Origin: a virus
Length of the DNA stretch: 20,042 nt
Strand: one strand, 5' to 3'
Virus record (IMG/VR): IMGVR_UViG_3300020160_003442
Coordinates: 1 to 20,042 of that record
In this document: in pieces, positions 1 to 18,287 of the stretch
Position numbering within the stretch: position 1 is the stretch's first letter
How the letters are laid out: each line of letters begins with the position of its first letter
The notes under the pieces: generated by a model
The model's input: only the letters and a program-made list of their open reading frames with translations
Told to the model about the DNA's origin: nothing
The model's database searches: none
Made by a program: the position numbers and the translations under genes

Positions 1-25
1 GAAGTATGGCGTCTGTGTTTTCCAT
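1..25 (-). CDS. possible 5' end of a gene leaving the left edge
   Basis: Reading leftward on the minus strand, an ATG at 25 opens a frame of eight codons (MENTDAIL) to the window edge with no stop. The A/T-rich stretch with the palindrome at 26-51 lies directly upstream, as expected for a gene divergent from the zinc-ribbon gene at 96. Only eight codons are visible, so this is a placement guess and no function can be offered. Confidence 0.3.
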
Positions 26-2042: not shown

Positions 2043-4178
2043 ATGACAGTCAAACCAAACGAAGTCGAAAGACAGATGGTCTTCACAAGCAAGATCGTCG
2101 AAGAGGCGACAGATAAGATAAATGATGGTATAGTAGTCAAGAGATACCAGAATCCATGGCTCAAAAGCGAAGTGGGGATCCGCAGGGCGGGCGTCTCTTT
2201 CAGGATGTCTGCCGACGAACAGCAAGAATACGTGAGATGCGCTCTCGACATACACTACTTTACCGAAAAATACTGCAAGACGAAGAGAGAAGACGGATCT
2301 GTCGGGTCTATACTTCTGAGAGACTACCAGAAGGAGATACTCGACAATTTCGTCAACAACCGTTTCAACATACTCATGGCTTCTAGGCAGGTAGGAAAGA
2401 CCGTTTCATCTGCCATATTCATACTGCACACGATATTGTTCAGCAACGACAAGAACGTGATGATCGTCGCCAACAAAGGAGATACGGCCATCGAGATCGT
2501 GGATAAAGTTAAGTCTATATACACTCTGTTGCCTTTCTTCTTGAAACCTGGGGTCAAGACATGGAACCAGAAGTCTCTTACTTTCGAGAATGGATGCCGC
2601 ATCAAGACTTCTGCCCGTTCCAAGACTCCTGCGATCGGTTTTACCATCGACGTTCTCTATCTCGATGAGTTCGCGCATATTCCTTCGAACATCATAGAGC
2701 CATACTATACGGCCGCGTTTCCTACGGTTTCCGCCGTCCAGAACTCGAAAATCATCATAACATCGACTCCTAACGGAATGAACCTGTTCCATAGGCTTCT
2801 TACGGACGCGGAAAGGCCTGACGGAGATCCTCTGAAGAACAACTACAAGCCGCTTCGCGTATATTGGTATCAGGTTCCAGGAAGATTCGTATCCTATATA
2901 AGGCTCAATTCTCACAAGCTGTATCAGCATGGCGTCACCAAAGATGAAATTTTCGCGTTCGTTAAGGAGAGATTCGGACATCTTACCAATATCAAGATGG
3001 AGTTCAATATGGACCAGCAGAAAGACGTCATACATGTATTCAACAACGATCGCTGCACAAGCGATGAAGTGAGAGAGTTTTCTTTTTTGGACTCCAACGG
3101 ATACCAGACATCAATTTTGGCGGTCGCCGAAGTCACTACCTGGAAAGACGAGGCGGTCAAAGACATTGGAGGAGAAGACGCGTTCAATCAGGAGTATGGA
3201 TTGAGATTCATAAACTCTAGCAAGTCTCTACTGTCTGAGTCTATAATAGACGAGCTTCTTAAATCCAAAAAGAACTATGTGCATGAAGAGATATACGAGA
3301 TAGGTTCAAAGCTCAAGTTCTCTTATGAGGATCTTAAATGGATCGACGACGAAGATTCGTTCGTTCCTGTCAGGAGGAAGGACTACAAATATGTTCTTTC
3401 GGTGGATATATCAGAAGGCCTTGGACAGGACTATTCCATAATAAACATATTCAGGATATCCGAGAAGCCTATCGAGGTGATAGAGTCTCAGAAGCATAAA
3501 TACAAATCTGTCGTAGACTTCTTCAGGCTGGAGCAGATAGGAATATATAGGAACAACTTTATTTCTGTCAAGCAGCTCGCCGAGCTTCTGTATCTTATAG
3601 TATTCGAGTATCTAAATCCTGAAAACGTCAAAGTGGTTCTTGAGCTAAACAACTACGGAAACACTCTTTTGGCCGAAATGCCGCATGTTTTCGATGGCAA
3701 CAACAATTATGGATCTTCTGTCTTCGTGAGATACAAGCATAGAATAGACGCTTCTGAAGAAAAGATAGGGCTGAAAGTAGGCGAAAACAAGAATCTTATG
3801 GTCAAAGACTATCAAGATCTCATGTATGGAAAGAGCTTCTTCATAACAAACGAGGACAATATAAGAGAGATAACGACATTCGTCAAGCATGTCACCAATG
3901 CTGGAAACGTGAGATATGCCGCCGATGTCGGGCATGACGATACCGTGATGACTATAGTCAACTCCACCACTATATTCTCAAAGCCTGAGTTTAGGGAAAT
4001 GGCGGAAGAATGGGGAAATAAATATAGTCCCAAAGAGTTTATGTCCTATGTCAACGAGTGTCTAAAAGAAATAGACTTTGTAGAAGGACTCGACTATGGT
4101 CAGGTGTTGAAGGCAAGAAGGCAATATATCAACAGGCCCAAACAATCAGGCGGTAATTTGTGGTTTGGGTCCAAATGA
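2043..4178 (+). CDS. terL: terminase large subunit (T4 gp17-like)
   Basis: The 711-residue DNA-packaging motor protein, an N-terminal ATPase and C-terminal nuclease that docks on the portal and pumps and cuts DNA. The ATPase is seen in Walker A ASRQVGKT (113-120), Walker B VLYLDE (204-209, with catalytic D208/E209) and the coupling motif TSTPNG (240-245). The nuclease is an RNase H-like fold with acidic residues at D455 (in LSVDISEG), E534 (VLELNNYG) and D632/D633 (GHDDTV), corresponding in order to the T4 gp17 nuclease triad. T4 gp17 has about 610 residues, so this one is longer, mostly in the linker and nuclease regions. The ATG at 2043 is the first in frame after the intergenic region; no Shine-Dalgarno sequence is present. 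It is preceded by a late promoter motif and meets the clpS gene tail to tail. Confidence 0.97.
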   Translation: MTVKPNEVERQMVFTSKIVEEATDKINDGIVVKRYQNPWLKSEVGIRRAGVSFRMSADEQQEYVRCALDIHYFTEKYCKTKREDGSVGSILLRDYQKEILDNFVNNRFNILMASRQVGKTVSSAIFILHTILFSNDKNVMIVANKGDTAIEIVDKVKSIYTLLPFFLKPGVKTWNQKSLTFENGCRIKTSARSKTPAIGFTIDVLYLDEFAHIPSNIIEPYYTAAFPTVSAVQNSKIIITSTPNGMNLFHRLLTDAERPDGDPLKNNYKPLRVYWYQVPGRFVSYIRLNSHKLYQHGVTKDEIFAFVKERFGHLTNIKMEFNMDQQKDVIHVFNNDRCTSDEVREFSFLDSNGYQTSILAVAEVTTWKDEAVKDIGGEDAFNQEYGLRFINSSKSLLSESIIDELLKSKKNYVHEEIYEIGSKLKFSYEDLKWIDDEDSFVPVRRKDYKYVLSVDISEGLGQDYSIINIFRISEKPIEVIESQKHKYKSVVDFFRLEQIGIYRNNFISVKQLAELLYLIVFEYLNPENVKVVLELNNYGNTLLAEMPHVFDGNNNYGSSVFVRYKHRIDASEEKIGLKVGENKNLMVKDYQDLMYGKSFFITNEDNIREITTFVKHVTNAGNVRYAADVGHDDTVMTIVNSTTIFSKPEFREMAEEWGNKYSPKEFMSYVNECLKEIDFVEGLDYGQVLKARRQYINRPKQSGGNLWFGSK

Positions 4179-4180
4179 TA

Positions 4181-4459
4181 CTAGTTTGCTTCCATAGTGA
4201 CCGAAAGGCCTGCGTTCTGAAGTTTTTCTTTCATTTCTGAAATAGTCTCATAGTCTCCGTATTTAACGTCGCATACTCCGTTGAAGTGTACTATATGCGC
4301 GCATTGGTTCGCCTGCTCTTGCTCGTGTCCACATATCTTCATCAGGCATGTTATTACCCAATCGAAACTATTGAAGTCGTCATTGTGTAGATCCAGCCTA
4401 TATGGCTTAGATAGTATTTCTTCTACTTTTGACTCTACTTTTTCTTTTACTTTGCCCAT
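4181..4459 (-). CDS. clpS: ClpS-like Clp protease adaptor
   Basis: A 92-residue protein spanning the ClpS core. In bacteria ClpS binds proteins with bulky hydrophobic N-terminal residues and hands them to ClpAP for degradation (the N-end rule), while inhibiting SsrA-tag delivery. The signature is intact: LHNDDFNSFDWV (24-35) with N26-D27-D28 lining the N-degron pocket, a hydrophobic helix ending L39-M40, and H58 in the IVHFNG strand (56-61), matching the conserved histidine that grips the N-terminal amine. The N-terminal extension (1-18) is highly charged; in bacterial ClpS this segment is what engages the ClpA pore. The gene follows the HAD gene on the minus strand with a 24-base gap. No ClpA or ClpP gene is visible, so it would act on host machinery. 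Confidence 0.88.
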   Translation of the reverse strand: MGKVKEKVESKVEEILSKPYRLDLHNDDFNSFDWVITCLMKICGHEQEQANQCAHIVHFNGVCDVKYGDYETISEMKEKLQNAGLSVTMEAN

Positions 4460-5687: not shown

Positions 5688-5697
5688 TTAATATATA
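5688..5697 (+). promoter_or_regulatory. candidate late promoter motif TTAATATATA with upstream element
   Basis: Exact match, ending 24 bases before the ATG at 5722. The 17 bases before it, beginning AAAACGG at 5671, share an arrangement with the promoter at 10648-10657, suggesting an extended element. Confidence 0.6.
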
Positions 5698-5721: not shown

Positions 5722-6381
5722 ATGAAACATATCAGGAAATTTGAAAAGTTCAGAGTTCTGAAAAACAGGGAAGAGATAATCAAGGAATCTGTTCTTCAAG
5801 TGAACGATATCTATAAGGTCAAGACTATGATAGACATACCTCAATCTTTGATAAATGCTTATGTTAAGAAGGTTAAAGATACAACAGGTAAAAACCTACG
5901 TCAGTTTTTTGGCGACGTAGATATCGCGGAGGAAATCGTTAAGTATATCACTCTAAACAACACGGATGTGGAGAAGATACCAGGAAACGCTCTAATGGGT
6001 GGTGCTCAAGGTCAAGGTCAGGCACAAGGACAAAGTCAGGTACAGGTACAGACTGAAGGTGAGGCACAAACTCAAGGTCAAGGTGAGGCACAAACTCAAG
6101 GACAAACTCAAGGACAGGCGCAGGGTCAAGGACAGGCGCAAGGTCAAGGACAGGCACAAGAGGGAGATTTTGAAGAACCACAAGGACAGGGTCAAGGTCA
6201 GACACAAGGACAAGGACAAGGTCAGGCACAAGGACAAGGTCAGGCGCAAGGTCAAGGACAGGCGCAAGGTCAAGGACAGGCACAAGGTCAAGGACAGGCG
6301 CAAGGTCAAGGACAGGCGCAAGGTCAAGAAGAAGAAGAAGGACAAGAAGAAGGACAAGGAGAAGAAGAACTTCCGGCCTAA
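5722..6381 (+). CDS. Gly-Gln repeat protein with capsid-targeting-like N-terminus
   Basis: A 219-residue protein in three parts. Residues 1-92 are an ordered, charged helical region opening with MKHIRKFEKF, the N-terminal motif shared with the next three genes. Residues 94-204 are almost entirely GQ and AQ dipeptides, coded by imperfect 6- and 18-base DNA repeats. Residues 205-219 form an acidic tail rich in Glu. The N-terminal motif resembles the T4 capsid-targeting sequence (MKTYQEF-type), and IKE at 20-22 fits the T4 prohead-protease pattern (I/L)-x-E. A prohead core or scaffold protein removed or packaged during maturation is a reasonable guess, but no family is recognised. The repeat keeps other frames open, creating false ORFs on both strands. 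Confidence 0.8.
   Translation: MKHIRKFEKFRVLKNREEIIKESVLQVNDIYKVKTMIDIPQSLINAYVKKVKDTTGKNLRQFFGDVDIAEEIVKYITLNNTDVEKIPGNALMGGAQGQGQAQGQSQVQVQTEGEAQTQGQGEAQTQGQTQGQAQGQGQAQGQGQAQEGDFEEPQGQGQGQTQGQGQGQAQGQGQAQGQGQAQGQGQAQGQGQAQGQGQAQGQEEEEGQEEGQGEEELPA
6004..6333 (+). repeat. imperfect hexamer and 18-mer repeats coding GQ/AQ
   Basis: The region is built from variants of CAAGGN and CAGGCN hexamers. The best-ordered part is four consecutive 18-base units, CAAGGTCAAGGACAGGCG or one-base variants, at 6247-6264, 6265-6282, 6283-6300 and 6301-6318. Two further units lie at 6121-6156. Copy number probably varies through replication slippage or recombination. Confidence 0.85.
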
Positions 6382-6401
6382 TAAATATTTAATAGAAAAA
6401 G

Positions 6402-6430
6402 AATCCACCAATTTAGGTGGATTTTTTTTT
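6402..6430 (+). terminator. intrinsic terminator after the GQ-repeat gene
   Basis: An 8-bp perfect stem AATCCACC/GGTGGATT (6402-6409 with 6416-6423), a 6-base loop and a run of T to 6430. The T run continues directly into the promoter motif at 6429-6438. Confidence 0.88.
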
Positions 6431-6438
6431 AATATATA
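6429..6438 (+). promoter_or_regulatory. candidate late promoter motif TTAATATATA abutting a terminator
   Basis: Exact match whose first two T's are the end of the terminator T-tract. It ends 4 bases before an ATG at 6443 and 10 before the ATG at 6449. Confidence 0.6.
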
Positions 6439-6448
6439 TGTAATGAAT

Positions 6449-6676
6449 ATGAGATATTTAATGAAATTCGAGGGATTCAAAGAGTTGGATTTCATAAATA
6501 CCGTTACTTATAAAGGGTATGTAAGGAATAAATTCGAACCGGGTGATATGGATAAATTGCTTGAATGGCGATTCCGACTCAAAGAGCTTATGGACCAATC
6601 ATCCGATCAGTTCGACATAATAAATTATGGCAAAGAAATCAAAGCCGTCGATTTTATACTATCAAAGCATTTTTAA
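6449..6676 (+). CDS. small protein with capsid-targeting-like N-terminus, unknown
   Basis: A 75-residue charged protein beginning MRYLMKFEGFKEL. An in-frame ATG at 6443 would add Met-Asn. The later start is preferred because it aligns the N-terminus with those at 5722, 6681 and 7170 (M-K/R-x-I/L-x-x-F-E). No family is recognised. The gene has its own promoter motif directly after a terminator and is followed 4 bases later by the next gene, so the two are probably one transcript. It is a plausible virion internal protein by analogy with T4 internal proteins; this is inference. Confidence 0.7.
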   Translation: MRYLMKFEGFKELDFINTVTYKGYVRNKFEPGDMDKLLEWRFRLKELMDQSSDQFDIINYGKEIKAVDFILSKHF

Positions 6677-6680
6677 TACG

Positions 6681-7166
6681 ATGAAATACATAAAGCTTTT
6701 TGAAAGCATACATGATGAGAGGCTCGCGGAAGAGACATGGGGAATAGATCCTTTCGAGCTTAGAGACATAGTTCAGATGTGTATCGAGGACTGTGGTGTA
6801 TTCTGCGAATTCGAAATATATCTTGGCATATCTTCTATTAATCAAAAAAATAGGTGGGACGGAAGCAAATACGACAGTGAACAGTTTTCTTCGATTTTCA
6901 AAGTCCTTTCTGACCGCATCGAACGAGATAATAGCATGCGTGCCTTTCCGTCTAAAGATTGTGTCGATGATGCACTGAAAGATGGAAAGTATCTGAAGAT
7001 ATGTGTTTTTCTAATCGGAGAAGAAGCGGCGATCAAAGCCGTCGATATAAGGAATTCCATAAACGAAAGGCTCTCGGCTTTCGGCGCTGGATATGCATGT
7101 AAGTTTATCGAATGGATAGGCAACGACTCGGTGGAGATAGTTTTCGAAAAGGAAATTAATATATAG
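6681..7166 (+). CDS. unknown protein with capsid-targeting-like N-terminus
   Basis: A 161-residue protein opening MKYIKLFESIHDERLAEE. An upstream in-frame start at 6627 exists, but it lies inside the previous gene, and the shared N-terminal motif marks 6681. LAE at residues 15-17 fits the (I/L)-x-E pattern of T4-type prohead protease sites. The rest is a mixed alpha/beta domain with several cysteines (in the stretches MCIEDCGVFC, KDC and YACK) and is not recognised. The gene's last codons overlap the promoter motif of the next gene. A packaged internal protein is suggested by the N-terminus only. Confidence 0.75.
   Translation: MKYIKLFESIHDERLAEETWGIDPFELRDIVQMCIEDCGVFCEFEIYLGISSINQKNRWDGSKYDSEQFSSIFKVLSDRIERDNSMRAFPSKDCVDDALKDGKYLKICVFLIGEEAAIKAVDIRNSINERLSAFGAGYACKFIEWIGNDSVEIVFEKEINI
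7156..7165 (+). promoter_or_regulatory. candidate late promoter motif TTAATATATA inside the 3' end of a gene
   Basis: Exact match overlapping the last codons and stop of the gene at 6681-7166, ending 4 bases before the ATG at 7170. A T4-type late start site would fall at or next to that ATG. Confidence 0.55.
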
Positions 7167-7169
7167 AAT

Positions 7170-7820
7170 ATGAGATACCTGAAGACATTCGAAAGCCATG
7201 GAAAGGAAGATATATTGATCATAGTGGATGTTCAAAAATCATTCAATAAGTACTTTACCGAAGCTTATGTGGATGCTTTGAAAAAATACTGCAAAAGATT
7301 CAAAAGAGTTTATCAGATATGGGACAACCATGTTGATGGAAAGAACGTCGACAAAGACTATCTGTACGATTTGGATCCTTCTGTTCCCGACCATTCGGAT
7401 CTCTATGATTTTCCTAACCAGGAAGAGCCTATCGAAAAGAGATATAACTATGACGTAGACGCGGATTTTTATAAAAACGTCTTGAGCGAAGACGTGTATA
7501 GAGAAATCAGCGAAAAGGAAGATTCTAGCGAGATAAAAAAAGGAGATGTCTTTCCTACGAAAGAAGGAACTCTTCTGGTCTATATCGGAAACAATCACAA
7601 ATGGTATCATATGCCTAAGAGGCTACATGAGCTTTTTCAGGAGTTGTGCGAAGCACAGACACTAAATGAGGGAATCGGAAAGCTTGGAGACGTCGTGCTG
7701 GTCGGAGGAGCAGACGGAGAGTGTCTCGAAGATATAGAGACTGCTGCGGTAGCGATGGGCGTAAGGCTTAGGATGAACAGGAAATATGTCTATTCTGCCA
7801 AGCATTGTCCGATAGGATAG
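7170..7820 (+). CDS. isochorismatase-like cysteine hydrolase with capsid-targeting-like N-terminus
   Basis: A 216-residue protein. After the leader MRYLKTFES comes ILIIVDVQKSF (15-25), the first strand of the isochorismatase/nicotinamidase fold with the catalytic Asp (D20). Near the C-terminus VVLVGGADGECLEDIETAAVAMG (about 174-196) matches the family's nucleophile region, with C185 in the expected cysteine position before the alanine-rich helix. The catalytic lysine is not pinned down, and a charged insert occupies the middle. Family members hydrolyse nicotinamide, isochorismate, ureidoacrylate or carbamoylated substrates; the substrate here is unknown. The leader may direct the enzyme into the capsid. 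It is followed 16 bases later by the small basic protein gene. Confidence 0.8.
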   Translation: MRYLKTFESHGKEDILIIVDVQKSFNKYFTEAYVDALKKYCKRFKRVYQIWDNHVDGKNVDKDYLYDLDPSVPDHSDLYDFPNQEEPIEKRYNYDVDADFYKNVLSEDVYREISEKEDSSEIKKGDVFPTKEGTLLVYIGNNHKWYHMPKRLHELFQELCEAQTLNEGIGKLGDVVLVGGADGECLEDIETAAVAMGVRLRMNRKYVYSAKHCPIG

Positions 7821-12098: not shown

Positions 12099-12464
12099 AT
12101 GTATCTTAACAACAAAGAACTCTACATCGAGCTTGTAGTGAGCAAAGCGCAAGGAAGATTGACGCGAAACGCTCAGAAGATGCTCGAGCTTCTAGCCAAG
12201 AAGACCATCAAGAAGATGAGGTATTGGTCGAACGACGACAAGCTAGATTGCTACCAGAGCGGCCTGCTCTACGTCTTCCAGAACTGGTATAACTTCAACG
12301 AAGAAAAATCCGTAAATGCCTTCGCATATTTCACCGAGATATTCAAGCGAGGAATCGCCAAAGGCTACAACGACCTATATAAGAAAAAGGGCGACAACGA
12401 ACATCAGATAAGGCTAATCTCCATCGAGGGAAGCAACGATGGCATGGGCCTTCACTCATTGTAA
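12099..12464 (+). CDS. gp55: late-transcription sigma factor (T4 gp55-like)
   Basis: A 121-residue minimal sigma factor that would direct host RNA polymerase to phage late promoters. In T4, gp55 recognises TATAAATA and needs the sliding clamp and gp33. Sequence support: LTRNAQKMLELLAKK (21-35), then a region-2-like segment with DDKLDCYQSGLLYVFQNW (46-63) and NAFAYFTEIFKRGIAKGYNDLY (73-94), closely matching gp55 proteins of T4-like marine phages. T4 gp55 has 185 residues, so this is short. The C-terminus MGLHSL could be the clamp-binding tail, as in T4, but that is inference. The start is ATG at 12099. It lies alone on the plus strand, after a terminator and convergent with the small ORF at 12465, and has no late motif in front. 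Confidence 0.9.
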   Translation: MYLNNKELYIELVVSKAQGRLTRNAQKMLELLAKKTIKKMRYWSNDDKLDCYQSGLLYVFQNWYNFNEEKSVNAFAYFTEIFKRGIAKGYNDLYKKKGDNEHQIRLISIEGSNDGMGLHSL

Positions 12465-12848: not shown

Positions 12849-13901
12849 TTATTCTAATATAGTTCTTACCATTCTTTCGACGATAAGATAGGGATCTGCG
12901 TTTGAGGCAGGCCTTCTGTCTTCTATGTATCCGATCGCTTTTGATTCGTTTATCGTAGAAGGTATCCTTATGGACTTTGTCCTGTCTGCTATTCCCCATC
13001 CGAAATTGTCTATCGATGAGGTCTCGTTTGTGCCGGTCAGCCTGGCCTCGTTGTTCTTTCCATATACGGCGATATGCTCTGCGTGCTTTTTGGAAAGCCT
13101 TTCGCACATATCTATGGCTATGGCTTTTTTGTTCTCTTTGTCATCTCTTATCTTCTTCGTCGAAAAATTCACATGCATTCCTGATCCGTTCCAGTCATTT
13201 CCCGCGAAAGGCTTTGGATCCAGTTCTATTCTATATCCATATTTTTCGCTTAGTCTATGTAGTATGTATCTTGATATCCATAGCTGGTCCGCTCCTTCTT
13301 CCGCCGTTACCGTTCCTACCTGATATTCCCATTGTCCTAATGCGACCTCCGCGTTTATTCCGGATATAGAAATGCCTGCGGATATGCATAAGTCTGCATG
13401 TTCCTCGACGAATTCTCTTCCGGACACGTTGTTTGTTCCGACCGCGCAATAGTATTCTCCCTGTGATCTTGGATTTCCTTTATCTGGCCATCCTATAGGC
13501 CTATTCGTCTTTTGGTCGAATATGAAATATTCTTGCTCCCATCCATACATCGTCTCATCGTCGTATTTGCGTAAGATTGCATTCATCTTGTATCTTGTGT
13601 TGCTTTCGTGTGGAGTTCCGTCTGTGTTGAATACCTCGCATAGAACTAATATGGAATCTTTCGAAAAGGGGTTTATGAAGAAGTTTTTAGGAACCAGCAT
13701 TAGCTCGGATTTGGAAGTCTCCGCCTGATATGTGGAAGAGCCGTCGAAGTTCCAAAACGGAGCGGCTCTTTTCTCGGTTTTATATTGCTTAAGCAGCTTT
13801 TTCGTTTCTGTTTCGCAATCTATTATTTTGGTCTTTGATCTAAGCTGTTGTGTTTCGCACCCATCCAGCCATATATATTCCAGCTTCTTCATTTTTTTCA
13901 T
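12849..13901 (-). CDS. glnII: type II glutamine synthetase
   Basis: A 350-residue enzyme that joins ammonia to glutamate with ATP. It is of type II (the eukaryote-like decameric GS also found in some bacteria), about 350 residues, not the roughly 470-residue GSI. The whole family plan is present: beta-grasp WLDG and RSKTK (11-25), NFDGSST (51-57), WEQEY (121-125, metal ligands E122 and E124), INAEV (182-186, E185), QWEYQVG (190-196, E192), GMHVNFST (241-248, H243), RLTG (287-290) and EDRRPASN (327-334, E328 and active-site Arg). Nothing key is missing, so it is likely active. Start could be 13901 or 13892 (MKKLEYIWLDG); an ATG at 13970 adds an unconserved stretch. It has its own terminator and no late-type motif. 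Confidence 0.95.
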   Translation of the reverse strand: MKKMKKLEYIWLDGCETQQLRSKTKIIDCETETKKLLKQYKTEKRAAPFWNFDGSSTYQAETSKSELMLVPKNFFINPFSKDSILVLCEVFNTDGTPHESNTRYKMNAILRKYDDETMYGWEQEYFIFDQKTNRPIGWPDKGNPRSQGEYYCAVGTNNVSGREFVEEHADLCISAGISISGINAEVALGQWEYQVGTVTAEEGADQLWISRYILHRLSEKYGYRIELDPKPFAGNDWNGSGMHVNFSTKKIRDDKENKKAIAIDMCERLSKKHAEHIAVYGKNNEARLTGTNETSSIDNFGWGIADRTKSIRIPSTINESKAIGYIEDRRPASNADPYLIVERMVRTILE

Positions 13902-14074
13902 TTTTTCATTTTTTATATTTATTAAAAAAAAATGCACTTTTTTGTCATATGTCTCTAAAAATAGGTGCATATGTTGAAAAAATTTGTCTTTTTTAATACA
14001 TATTCTTTTAATTTTAAGATATAGATCAAAAAAAAATAAATTTCATATTTTTCGATTTTTTTTTCTAAAACTTT

Positions 14075-16055: not shown

Positions 16056-16502
16056 ATGAAATACTCCACTTATATCGCTGCGGCAGAGCGTCTGTCTATC
16101 TTAGGCCAGAAAAAGAAAGCATCTTCTCTTGTAGAGCATGCCATAAGGCAAGAGAGGAGAAAAATAGATGAGCTGAATTTCAACATATTGGTTGGAGAAG
16201 TCAGGCGATTCGATGGTGCGAAATTCCACTCGGTTCAGGTCCTTAGAGAAAGAGAGGCAAATACTCTTATGTGTATATTCCATTCCGACGTCAATACTCA
16301 CCGAATATGTGCTAATCTCAAATCGAATGGTGATGTTGTCTGGTCTGACGGAAATCTGTTCTCGGATCGTCAGTCTGTAAGGTGCTACGAAAAGCTCTTG
16401 CGTTGTCTTTCTTCCTACCATCCTGATATCAAAAAGCTACTTTCCGAAATAGAGGTACATAAAGATTCTATAAGAGTTTTGGGAAGGACATTCTACGTCT
16501 AG
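16056..16502 (+). CDS. unknown protein upstream of portal
   Basis: A 148-residue protein. The N-terminal part is helical and basic (MKYSTYIAAAERLSILGQKK to about residue 40), followed by a mixed alpha/beta region with three cysteines (73, 85 and 109, approximate) and a C-terminal strand. No family is recognised. No exact late motif precedes it, so it may be read from the promoter at 15294. Its transcript ends at the hairpin terminator 16517-16556. Confidence 0.65.
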   Translation: MKYSTYIAAAERLSILGQKKKASSLVEHAIRQERRKIDELNFNILVGEVRRFDGAKFHSVQVLREREANTLMCIFHSDVNTHRICANLKSNGDVVWSDGNLFSDRQSVRCYEKLLRCLSSYHPDIKKLLSEIEVHKDSIRVLGRTFYV

Positions 16503-16516
16503 CATCTGCGGAGAGG

Positions 16517-16556
16517 AACGCGAGATTTAATATATACGTTAAATTTCGCGTTTTTT
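16517..16556 (+). terminator. terminator hairpin containing the portal promoter motif
   Basis: A 14-bp stem AACGCGAGATTTAA/TTAAATTTCGCGTT (16517-16530 with 16539-16552, one G-T pair), an 8-base loop and six T's (16551-16556). The promoter motif at 16527-16536 lies in the top of the stem and the loop. Confidence 0.85.
16527..16536 (+). promoter_or_regulatory. candidate late promoter motif TTAATATATA
   Basis: Exact match ending 26 bases before the portal ATG at 16563, embedded in the hairpin of the terminator for the preceding gene. Confidence 0.6.
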
Positions 16557-16562
16557 AATTAG

Positions 16563-18287
16563 ATGGCATCTTACAACTACAATAATACAAGAGATTCTCA
16601 GGGAATGGGATTCGTCAATTCCGCGGTCGAAAACAAAGGCCTGTTCAGCAGGATATTGAGGAATCTTTCTAACTATGGAATGAACTACGACGACATGATC
16701 GTCAGAAACCAAGTCGGTATAGGAATAAACGAAGATCCTTATGCCGCCAAAGGAAACTCTATGTATGACTTCTTCTCTCAGAGAGCTGTCGCTTCCGTGC
16801 TCAGCAGAAAGTCCATACCATATCTGGACAAAGGATATGCAGATAAGAGAAGAATATTGAGAGAATATTCGATAAAAGACGAGATAAGAGACATGGTCAG
16901 CATGGTCGCGGACGAATGTATCGTATACAACGACGACAGGGACTTCTGTTCGCCAAGGCCTATAGGAAACGACTATTCTCAGGAGATACAGGACAAATAC
17001 CAAGAGTATTTCGAGAAGATATACAGCAAATATGGATTTTCAGACAGCATAACTGCCTGGAACATGATGAAAGACTTCCTAATCGACGGATTCGTGGCGG
17101 TCGAGATAATATACGACGACAAGAAGAAGAACATAATAGGATTCAACAGGCTTAGGCCGGAGACTATAGTTCCTGCATACGAGCCAAATGTCGGACATCT
17201 ATGGATACAGTTTCCTGAAGATCCGCAGCTCAGAAGGATATTCCTAGACTCTCAGATAGTATTCGTTTCTTATTCTACACAGAACGACTATTCCGAGACT
17301 TCGTATCTGGAAGGTCTGATAAAGCCTTACAACCAGCTGAAGATACTCGAGCAGACGAGGATAATGTTCAACGTCATAAACGCGACTATCTATCAGAAGT
17401 TCACTATTCCTATCAAAGGCCTTTCAAGGCAGAGAGCGGAAGAGCAGATAGGCCAGCTGATACATGACTATTCCGAAGAAGTCGAATGGGACGATACTCT
17501 TGGAACGCTTACTCTCAATGGAAGCAAGCATCTTCCTTACAACAAGCAGATTTGGTTTCCAGAAGGAGACGCCGGTTCTCCCAACATGACTCTAGAATCT
17601 CCTCAGGGACATGACCTAAACGAGGAAAGCATGCTCAAATGGTTCCATCAAGCGCTCAAGCGTGCTTCTAAGATTCCGATCCAGCGATTCGAGGCAGAAA
17701 GCGGTGGGGGTACATTCATTGCAGATACTGCGGGCCTGACAAACGACGAAGTCAAGTTCCACAACTTCATAAGCAGACTTAGGGCAAACTTCAAAGAGCT
17801 TATCGTCAAGCCGCTCAAGCTTCAGATGCTTATCGAGTTTCCTGAATTGAAAGATGATGAGATAATAATGAACCAGATGGATATCGTCTTCTATTCTAAT
17901 CAGATATTCGAAGAGTGGAAGAAGATAGCCAATTTGGCGAAGAGGGCGGAGGCCATAACTACTCTTACTGGTATAATGAATGGAGAAAAGCCTTATTTCC
18001 ACATCGAATGGATCATGGATCATGTATTCAAGCTCACTCCAGAAGAAAAGGCAGACAATCAAAAATATTGGGCAAAAGAAGCTGGCGGCGCTGGCGCTAC
18101 GGGCGATATCGCCGGCGGTGCAGAAGGAGGCGCTCCTGCAGAAGGAGGCGCTCCTGCAGAAGGAGGCGCTCAGATGGGTACAGAAGGAGGTGCTCAGGCA
18201 CAGGCTCCAGCGGCACAGGCCCCAGCACAGGGTGGAGGACAGGCTGCGCCGGAAGCTCCTGCACAAGGAGGCGAATTCGAATTCTAA
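16563..18287 (+). CDS. gp20: portal protein (T4 gp20-like)
   Basis: The 574-residue portal protein, the dodecameric ring at one head vertex through which DNA enters and leaves and on which the terminase docks. Recognisable stretches include KRRILREYSIKDEIRDMVSMVADECIVY-like helix and strand (about 95-122, here described by position), the clip-region LKILEQTRIMFNVINAT segment (about 259-275), the K-Q-I-W-F-P-E-G loop (about 333-340) and F-I-S-R-L-R-A-N-F helix (about 402-410), all in T4 gp20 order. T4 gp20 has 524 residues. The excess is a C-terminal tail (about 507-574) of Gly, Ala, Gln and Pro ending EFEF, partly coded by 18-base repeats. Promoter and upstream terminator are fused. Confidence 0.94.
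   Translation: MASYNYNNTRDSQGMGFVNSAVENKGLFSRILRNLSNYGMNYDDMIVRNQVGIGINEDPYAAKGNSMYDFFSQRAVASVLSRKSIPYLDKGYADKRRILREYSIKDEIRDMVSMVADECIVYNDDRDFCSPRPIGNDYSQEIQDKYQEYFEKIYSKYGFSDSITAWNMMKDFLIDGFVAVEIIYDDKKKNIIGFNRLRPETIVPAYEPNVGHLWIQFPEDPQLRRIFLDSQIVFVSYSTQNDYSETSYLEGLIKPYNQLKILEQTRIMFNVINATIYQKFTIPIKGLSRQRAEEQIGQLIHDYSEEVEWDDTLGTLTLNGSKHLPYNKQIWFPEGDAGSPNMTLESPQGHDLNEESMLKWFHQALKRASKIPIQRFEAESGGGTFIADTAGLTNDEVKFHNFISRLRANFKELIVKPLKLQMLIEFPELKDDEIIMNQMDIVFYSNQIFEEWKKIANLAKRAEAITTLTGIMNGEKPYFHIEWIMDHVFKLTPEEKADNQKYWAKEAGGAGATGDIAGGAEGGAPAEGGAPAEGGAQMGTEGGAQAQAPAAQAPAQGGGQAAPEAPAQGGEFEF
18120..18173 (+). repeat. three tandem 18-base repeats in the portal tail
   Basis: GCAGAAGGAGGCGCTCCT at 18120-18137 and 18138-18155, with a third copy at 18156-18173 differing in its last two bases. 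Each encodes A-E-G-G-A-P or A-E-G-G-A-Q. Confidence 0.9.

Follow-up and report, generated by a model that had tools for sequence, protein, structure and literature searches.

Why do four adjacent phage genes share the start of their products and nothing else? The genes lie in a virus record of 20,042 bases (IMG/VR IMGVR_UViG_3300020160_003442), the whole of which is called the window here, and their products begin MKHIRKFEKF (5722-6381), MRYLMKFEGF (6449-6676), MKYIKLFESI (6681-7166) and MRYLKTFESH (7170-7820), as the original prediction from the letters alone had stated. That prediction likened the common start, called the leader below, to the capsid-targeting sequence of the T4 internal proteins, and read the four proteins as possible cargo that is packaged in the head, trimmed by the prohead protease and injected with the DNA. 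Comparison of the window with complete relatives indicates that the leader is quite probably a capsid-targeting sequence like that of the T4 internal proteins, in a dialect specific to its lineage. The four proteins and their leaders are as follows (↓ marks a candidate cut, or the join between leader and cargo).

5722..6381, + strand: leader protein 1 (219 residues), with leader, conserved domain of ~70 residues, and hypervariable Q/G-rich and acidic tail
5722..5787, + strand: leader of protein 1, residues 1-22, end I(K/R/S)E↓S/A conserved, E22 invariant
6449..6676, + strand: leader protein 2 (75 residues, MRYLMKFEGF...), orthologs MK(Y/H)(L/I)KLFEGF
6449..6472, + strand: leader of protein 2, residues 1-8, from ORF (open reading frame) starts and orthologs
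6681..7166, + strand: leader protein 3 (161 residues, MKYIKLFESIHDERLAEETW...), relatives seen for the leader only
6681..6731, + strand: leader of protein 3, residues 1-17, candidate LAE↓E site from the sequence alone, orthologs none found
7170..7820, + strand: leader protein 4 (216 residues), with leader, variable linker and a hydrolase of predicted isochorismatase/nicotinamidase fold, D20 and C185 invariant
7170..7193, + strand: leader of protein 4, residues 1-8 (MRYLKTFE), low confidence in the model (predicted local distance difference test, pLDDT, <50)

In-frame ATGs also exist upstream of the called starts of proteins 2 and 3. The short start of protein 2 is favoured because its seven orthologs (75-83% identical) start MK(Y/H)(L/I)KLFEGFKELEF. 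Orthologs of protein 1 are present in at least 80 viral contigs, that of a 735-kb phage being 40% identical. For protein 3, 230 stretches match one of six peptides (leader MKYIKLFE included), and none of them encodes a relative of the whole protein.

The leader in complete Mahaphage genomes

Family searches identify the portal protein and the large terminase of the window as T4-type.

16563..18287, + strand: T4-type portal protein of the gp20 family, which puts the window in the T4-type head lineage
2043..4178, + strand: large terminase subunit, T4-type, from family searches

The portal is 80% identical to that of LR745206.1 (634,780 bp), 78% to that of LR756502.1 (642 kb), 50% to that of LR756504.1 (636 kb) and 46% to that of LR756501.1 (735 kb). 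Judged by its portal, the window is a piece of a T4-type Mahaphage genome, the LR relatives being, by their size, the largest Mahaphage genomes. Bacteroidetes are the predicted hosts of the Mahaphage clade (PMC7162821). The genomes of the four relatives (634, 642, 636 and 735 kb) were scanned in 20-kb pieces, with ORFs called by a simple longest-first rule; the counts below are approximate, and genes at the 20-kb borders may be cut.

The pattern M[KR].[ILVM]..F[EDQ], within 40 residues from the gene start, has 29, 24, 13 and 1 matches in the 634-, 642-, 636- and 735-kb genomes, against a mean of 0.6-0.8 and a maximum of 6-9 for 200 permuted versions. With a position-specific matrix, the leader M-K-(Y/H)-(L/I)-K-x-F-E opens 63 of 934, 57 of 965 and 38 of 925 genes of the first three genomes, where 0-0.6 genes per genome are expected from internal methionines; these counts are partly circular, as the matrix derives from the very genomes to which it was applied, and the internal methionines and two independent contigs serve as controls. 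The contigs (436 and 385 kb) hold 18 and 10 matches to this form of the leader, dialect A, and none to the reversed pattern. No excess of dialect A is seen in PTm1, in Lak-B4 (searched without the genetic code of Lak itself) or in the 462-kb LR756500. The common start on otherwise unrelated proteins, as originally predicted, is thereby confirmed, chance being excluded by the permuted patterns, and a genome-wide search for it reveals a scale far larger than four genes. A looser rule that covers leader variants finds 138, 147, 72 and 101 genes in the four genomes, with 20-25 expected by chance, and candidates above chance would number about 50-125 per genome, or 5-13% of genes, depending on the rule. 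Leader genes tend to neighbour each other (in one genome, 15 pairs lie side by side where 3.3 would be expected). No description of leaders of this kind in huge phages was found in the open-access literature.

An alignment of 142 leader proteins gives the consensus MKYLKxFExF and practically nothing else in common (mean column identity 4%). At the DNA level, the exact pattern encoding M-K-Y-(L/I/F)-K-T-F-E-S, close variants included, matches 109 viral contig stretches and, across 257 Gb of bacterial and archaeal genomes, four sites. Every conserved residue is written with a mixture of codons, TTA, CTA, CTT, TTG, ATT, ATA and ATC all being in use at position 4, and because these synonymous codons are mixed, selection acts on the leader peptide. 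Orthologs of protein 4, retrieved via their cargo and so independent of the seed pattern, keep L/I at position 4 and F/Y at position 7, with D8 replacing E8 in some. Behind this retained leader, the linker differs between orthologs in both length and sequence.

Probable targeting positions, dialects and candidate cargo

T4 IPII and IPIII start MKTYQEFIAEA, and IPI starts MKTFKEF. In IPIII, residues 4 and 7 control targeting and residues 8 and 10 control cutting by gp21, which cuts after L/I-X-E; with Asp at the cut site, cutting is blocked and targeting is unaffected (PMC9026906). In dialect A, that of the window, the two targeting positions of IPIII, 4 and 7, are occupied by L/I and F, respectively. 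A second dialect, B, is found in the 735-kb relative, where dialect A is mostly missing, with starts such as MKTFNQFINE↓GKLG, MIKKYIQFINE↓ASSD and MIKTFDEFINE↓SDYR. There, 39 genes carry [FY]xxF[ILVF]xE in the first 22 residues, against 1, 1 and 2 in the next three bins, and dialect B is also present in the 634-, 642- and 636-kb genomes of the window's lineage (19, 23 and 19 against 0-4). Applied to 60-109 kb of T4, the dialect-B rule recovers IPII and IPIII only, among 91 ORFs. Phage PAU has a third dialect, MKT(L/I)xxL(F/Y)E, with 14 starts against 0 for a control pattern; several of its leader genes cluster at 100-113 kb around the portal and the capsid maturation protease, and one PAU leader gene is annotated as internal capsid protein. 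Dialect B starts are also seen in the cultured Chryseobacterium phage MA9V-1 (MKNFFSFINEANS and MKTFTCFINEAKR).

Leaders are exchanged on the same cargo. Reciprocal best matches, computed without the first 22 residues, pair MIIKKYIKFINE↓EFDHLKSRG with MKYLRTYE↓GFDHLSERG in two genomes, with 85% identity over 167 residues behind the leader. The hydrolase of the window (protein 4) carries MRYLKTFE↓SH in its own clade and MKVIKFSDYLKE↓SQ in the 735-kb phage, and the conserved domain of protein 1 stands behind differing leaders, with the join I(K/R/S)E↓(S/A) or LTE↓N. By this comparison, the F-E Glu of dialect A would appear to be the counterpart of the Glu with which dialect B ends. A TYxxAAxKLxxxGHxxRA domain that is found behind leaders elsewhere occurs without one in the window, in the protein encoded immediately 5' of the portal gene (16056-16502, MKYSTYIAAAERLSILGQ...); the LR756502 counterpart (222007) starts MKHLRKFEELNYSTYTSAVDKL, and the leader of the window protein seems to have been lost.

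The expectation of diverse cargo including an enzyme is borne out by family matches and one structural model. Proteins that carry the leader include two NUDIX hydrolases, a SET domain, an HD domain protein, a UPF0227 protein, a phage lysozyme, a peptidoglycan-binding protein, a weakly Toprim-like protein and the predicted isochorismatase-fold protein 4; the majority are without a family. A weakly conserved I..IL.EL.DDGF stretch recurs in many leader proteins and is possibly a repeated cargo family. The Q/G-rich tail of protein 1 (6000-6370) is a hypervariable repeat with an acidic end EEELPA, its length and units differing in every relative; similar Q/A/G-rich stretches are found at the portal end and in the protease-scaffold of the 735-kb phage.

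Searches of Pfam and PHROGs assigned none of the four proteins to a family, returning only a low-complexity match, and protein 4 stayed unassigned even with 30 orthologs; a PDB profile search of protein 4 returned a single weak isochorismatase row (E 2). As these searches were uninformative for protein 4, a fold comparison was needed. With the model (pLDDT 79) as query, the top 27 rows all belong to the isochorismatase/nicotinamidase superfamily (Z 8.0-9.7, next row 5.9), and none of the Foldseek E-values is significant by itself. On this model, protein 4 has the isochorismatase/nicotinamidase fold. D20 and C185, invariant across 30 sequences, are the candidate catalytic Asp and Cys; the third residue, Lys, is unplaced. 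It is a speculation that early delivery of an amide hydrolase, nicotinamidase-like or of another kind, could affect nicotinamide adenine dinucleotide metabolism, a frequent phage-defence target.

Expression, prohead protease and candidate cut sites

The word AATATATA is among the strongest upstream of leader genes (P 1e-14 in two genomes). With an upstream gap of 15-60 nucleotides, it precedes 22/24, 21/28 and 10/14 leader genes against 60/196, 74/208 and 23/178 others, and permuted words of similar composition show little difference between leader and non-leader genes. The same word or a close variant also stands before the terminase, portal, protease, major capsid and long structural-looking genes. 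Its occurrences in the window, and a sigma factor gene, are listed below.

5690..5697, + strand: AATATATA upstream of protein 1
6431..6438, + strand: AATATATA upstream of protein 2
7158..7165, + strand: AATATATA upstream of protein 4
16529..16536, + strand: AATATATA upstream of the portal gene
12099..12464, + strand: late sigma factor, T4 gp55-like (phrog_234, E 5e-7)

We infer that AATATATA is a late promoter, for which the gp55-like sigma factor is the candidate reader. The distance from AATATATA to the ATG falls into two classes, 12-13 or 25-34 nucleotides; the near class might also act in translation, and as a promoter it would give a nearly leaderless mRNA.

The window itself is without a prohead protease gene. 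Such a gene, which the original prediction presupposes, was found outside it, with a gp21-family protease in 8/8 relatives searched; one match only lies above the curated Pfam cut-off, and where examined the protease adjoins portal and capsid genes. In the four genomes scanned, the protease ORF continues into tandem repeats such as YSEYIAENLDKNIA, each with (I/L/V)AE, and in the contigs nearest to the window 11-12 repeats holding (I/L/V)(A/S)E form one ORF with the protease. This ORF resembles a scaffold that is cut into pieces, consistent with the T4 rule and apparently with self-cutting built in, and the repeat region is probably the prohead core. In PTm1 the corresponding protein bears the annotation prohead core scaffolding protein and protease. 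A conserved (I/M)(N/H)E↓N lies in the N-terminal arm of the major capsid protein.

IKE at residues 20-22 of protein 1 and LAE at 15-17 of protein 3, which had been taken as fits to the T4 cut site, are both present. In protein 1, the IKE site is conserved as I(K/R/S)E in 25/25 variants, with I at position 20, and LTE takes its place in the 735-kb relative. Near the start of leader proteins, (I/L/V)NE is enriched threefold (21/135, 16%, against 105/2016, 5%), with no enrichment further downstream; for [ILVMF]NE the enrichment has P 1e-5 among 1600 patterns tried.

These results are assembled into the following mechanism. The cargo proteins would be produced late, along with the head proteins. 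Their first ~8-22 residues would bind the prohead core, probably the protease-fused repeats, with hydrophobic residue 4 and F7 as key contacts. At maturation the protease would cut after a Glu at or shortly behind the leader, the peptide departing with the core fragments, and the cargo would remain in the head and enter the next host together with the DNA. Of this chain, binding to the core, cutting, packaging and injection are inferred, as is what each cargo does.

Several points weigh against this mechanism. About 40% of leader genes are without AATATATA, which is expected within operons but unproven. The T4 internal proteins score negative on the dialect-A matrix, and the T4 match of the window's own dialect is therefore sparse (K2, hydrophobic 4, F7). 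The general (I/L)xE is hardly enriched, with 39% of leader proteins against 32% of controls, and none precedes the domain of protein 4 (0/80 orthologs). Among the four proteins, a cut at (I/L)xE is convincing for protein 1 alone, and the motif is not supported as the cut site of all leaders. Because the motif is barely enriched and protein 4 is without it, many leaders are perhaps cut elsewhere (after F-E?) or uncut; cutting of part of the set is likely. Virion proteomics for the Mahaphage clade was not found in the accessible literature, and a gel of MA9V-1 is without identification. What stands of the original prediction is an address system, well supported by abundance, residues 4 and 7, the protease, AATATATA and unrelated cargo. 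The leader appears to act like the T4 capsid-targeting sequence and is a candidate member of that class, its cleavage and the presence of its cargo in the virion being predicted.

Two further genes of the window, both on the minus strand, were noted. The small protein of 4181-4459 has a PHROG match described as ATP-dependent protease and is ClpS adaptor-like by eye; such an N-end-rule adaptor would be notable if the phage creates many new N-termini through cutting. The gene at 12849-13970, glutamine synthetase-like by eye, lies within the structural region, and its position is kept in LR745206 and LR756502.

Alternative explanations and related systems

The alternative that survives best, although unlikely, is that the leader directs late proteins, uncut, to another part of the virion or an assembly site, such as the tail, baseplate or membrane. 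It would fit the presence of AATATATA before long structural-looking and possibly tail genes, the scarcity of a clear (I/L)xE in most leaders, and cargo such as phage lysozyme and peptidoglycan-binding protein, which are common in tail proteins. The leader positions nevertheless equal the T4 capsid-targeting residues, the dialect-B rule recovers IPII and IPIII, the PAU leader genes adjoin portal and protease, and NUDIX, SET and hydrolase cargo is unlike that of a tail. Less probable still is an intracellular address, which might, for instance, bring proteins into a phage nucleus or attach them to a replication factory. Such an address, too, could be a short N-terminal peptide shared by many unrelated proteins, but the leader genes share AATATATA with virion genes, and these phages are T4-type in portal, terminase and protease, with a dialect B that fits T4 internal proteins.

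Common descent, in which one gene was copied often and diverged and the leader itself is functionless, is very improbable. Some cargo is indeed paralogous, as in the TYxxAAxKLxxxGHxxRA family, and leader genes are often adjacent (the 15 pairs noted above). However, unrelated folds bear the leader (SET, NUDIX, HD, UPF0227, isochorismatase, lysozyme), leader types are exchanged on the same cargo, the leader is constant while the linker behind it varies, and recent duplication fails to explain its persistence in protein 4 orthologs. A role of the shared start at the DNA or RNA level, in translation or as part of a promoter, can practically be discounted, for although an expression signal does accompany the leader, with AATATATA often 12-13 nucleotides before the ATG, the same residues are written in mixed codons (seven at position 4) and exchanges are conservative (F7/Y7, E8/D8).

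With capsid targeting as the preferred reading, a wider proposal is favoured on balance: Mahaphages load into their heads ~50 to >100 different late-made proteins per genome, many of them enzymes, through one detachable N-terminal address with interchangeable dialects. Its novelty would lie in the scale, at 5-13% of genes, in the existence of dialects, and in the variety of enzymes among the cargo of the largest phages. If true, a substantial proteome reaches the host with the phage DNA, and a sequence rule predicts the head-borne proteins of uncultured giant phages directly from the genome. Dozens of hypothetical genes per genome would gain a candidate role in taking over the host early or in countering its defences. 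Part of the large gene content would find an explanation, and new short tags for loading phage heads would be at hand.

The closest known system is that of T4 IPI, IPII, IPIII and Alt, in which a short N-terminal peptide ending in Glu is likewise carried by unrelated proteins (PMC9026906, PMC3012670). K2, a hydrophobic or aromatic residue 4 and F7 are shared with the T4 capsid-targeting sequence, as are a T4-type portal, protease and probable core. The window dialect differs in K5, E8 and the lack of a fixed (I/L)xE, and the Mahaphage protease is fused to a repeat region where T4 has separate gp21 and gp22. The textbook case of T4 comprises four such proteins (three internal proteins and Alt), against roughly 50-125 candidates per Mahaphage genome above chance, and the largest phages may thus have >10 times as many. 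The inner-body and ejection proteins of phiKZ and SPN3US (PMC7411985, PMC9026906) likewise belong to giant phages in which many head proteins are cleaved behind a Glu. Their descriptions rest on the cleavage motif and name no common leader, whereas Mahaphages are T4-type and the leader is the main feature. Packaging of NUDIX enzymes in heads was proposed earlier from fusions and gene order (PMC9503650); in that set of NUDIX, Macro and ART enzymes and polyvalent proteins, enzymes are likewise carried in the head and used early, but their packaging was inferred from head-protein fusions or gene position, and here it is suggested by a detachable N-terminal address.
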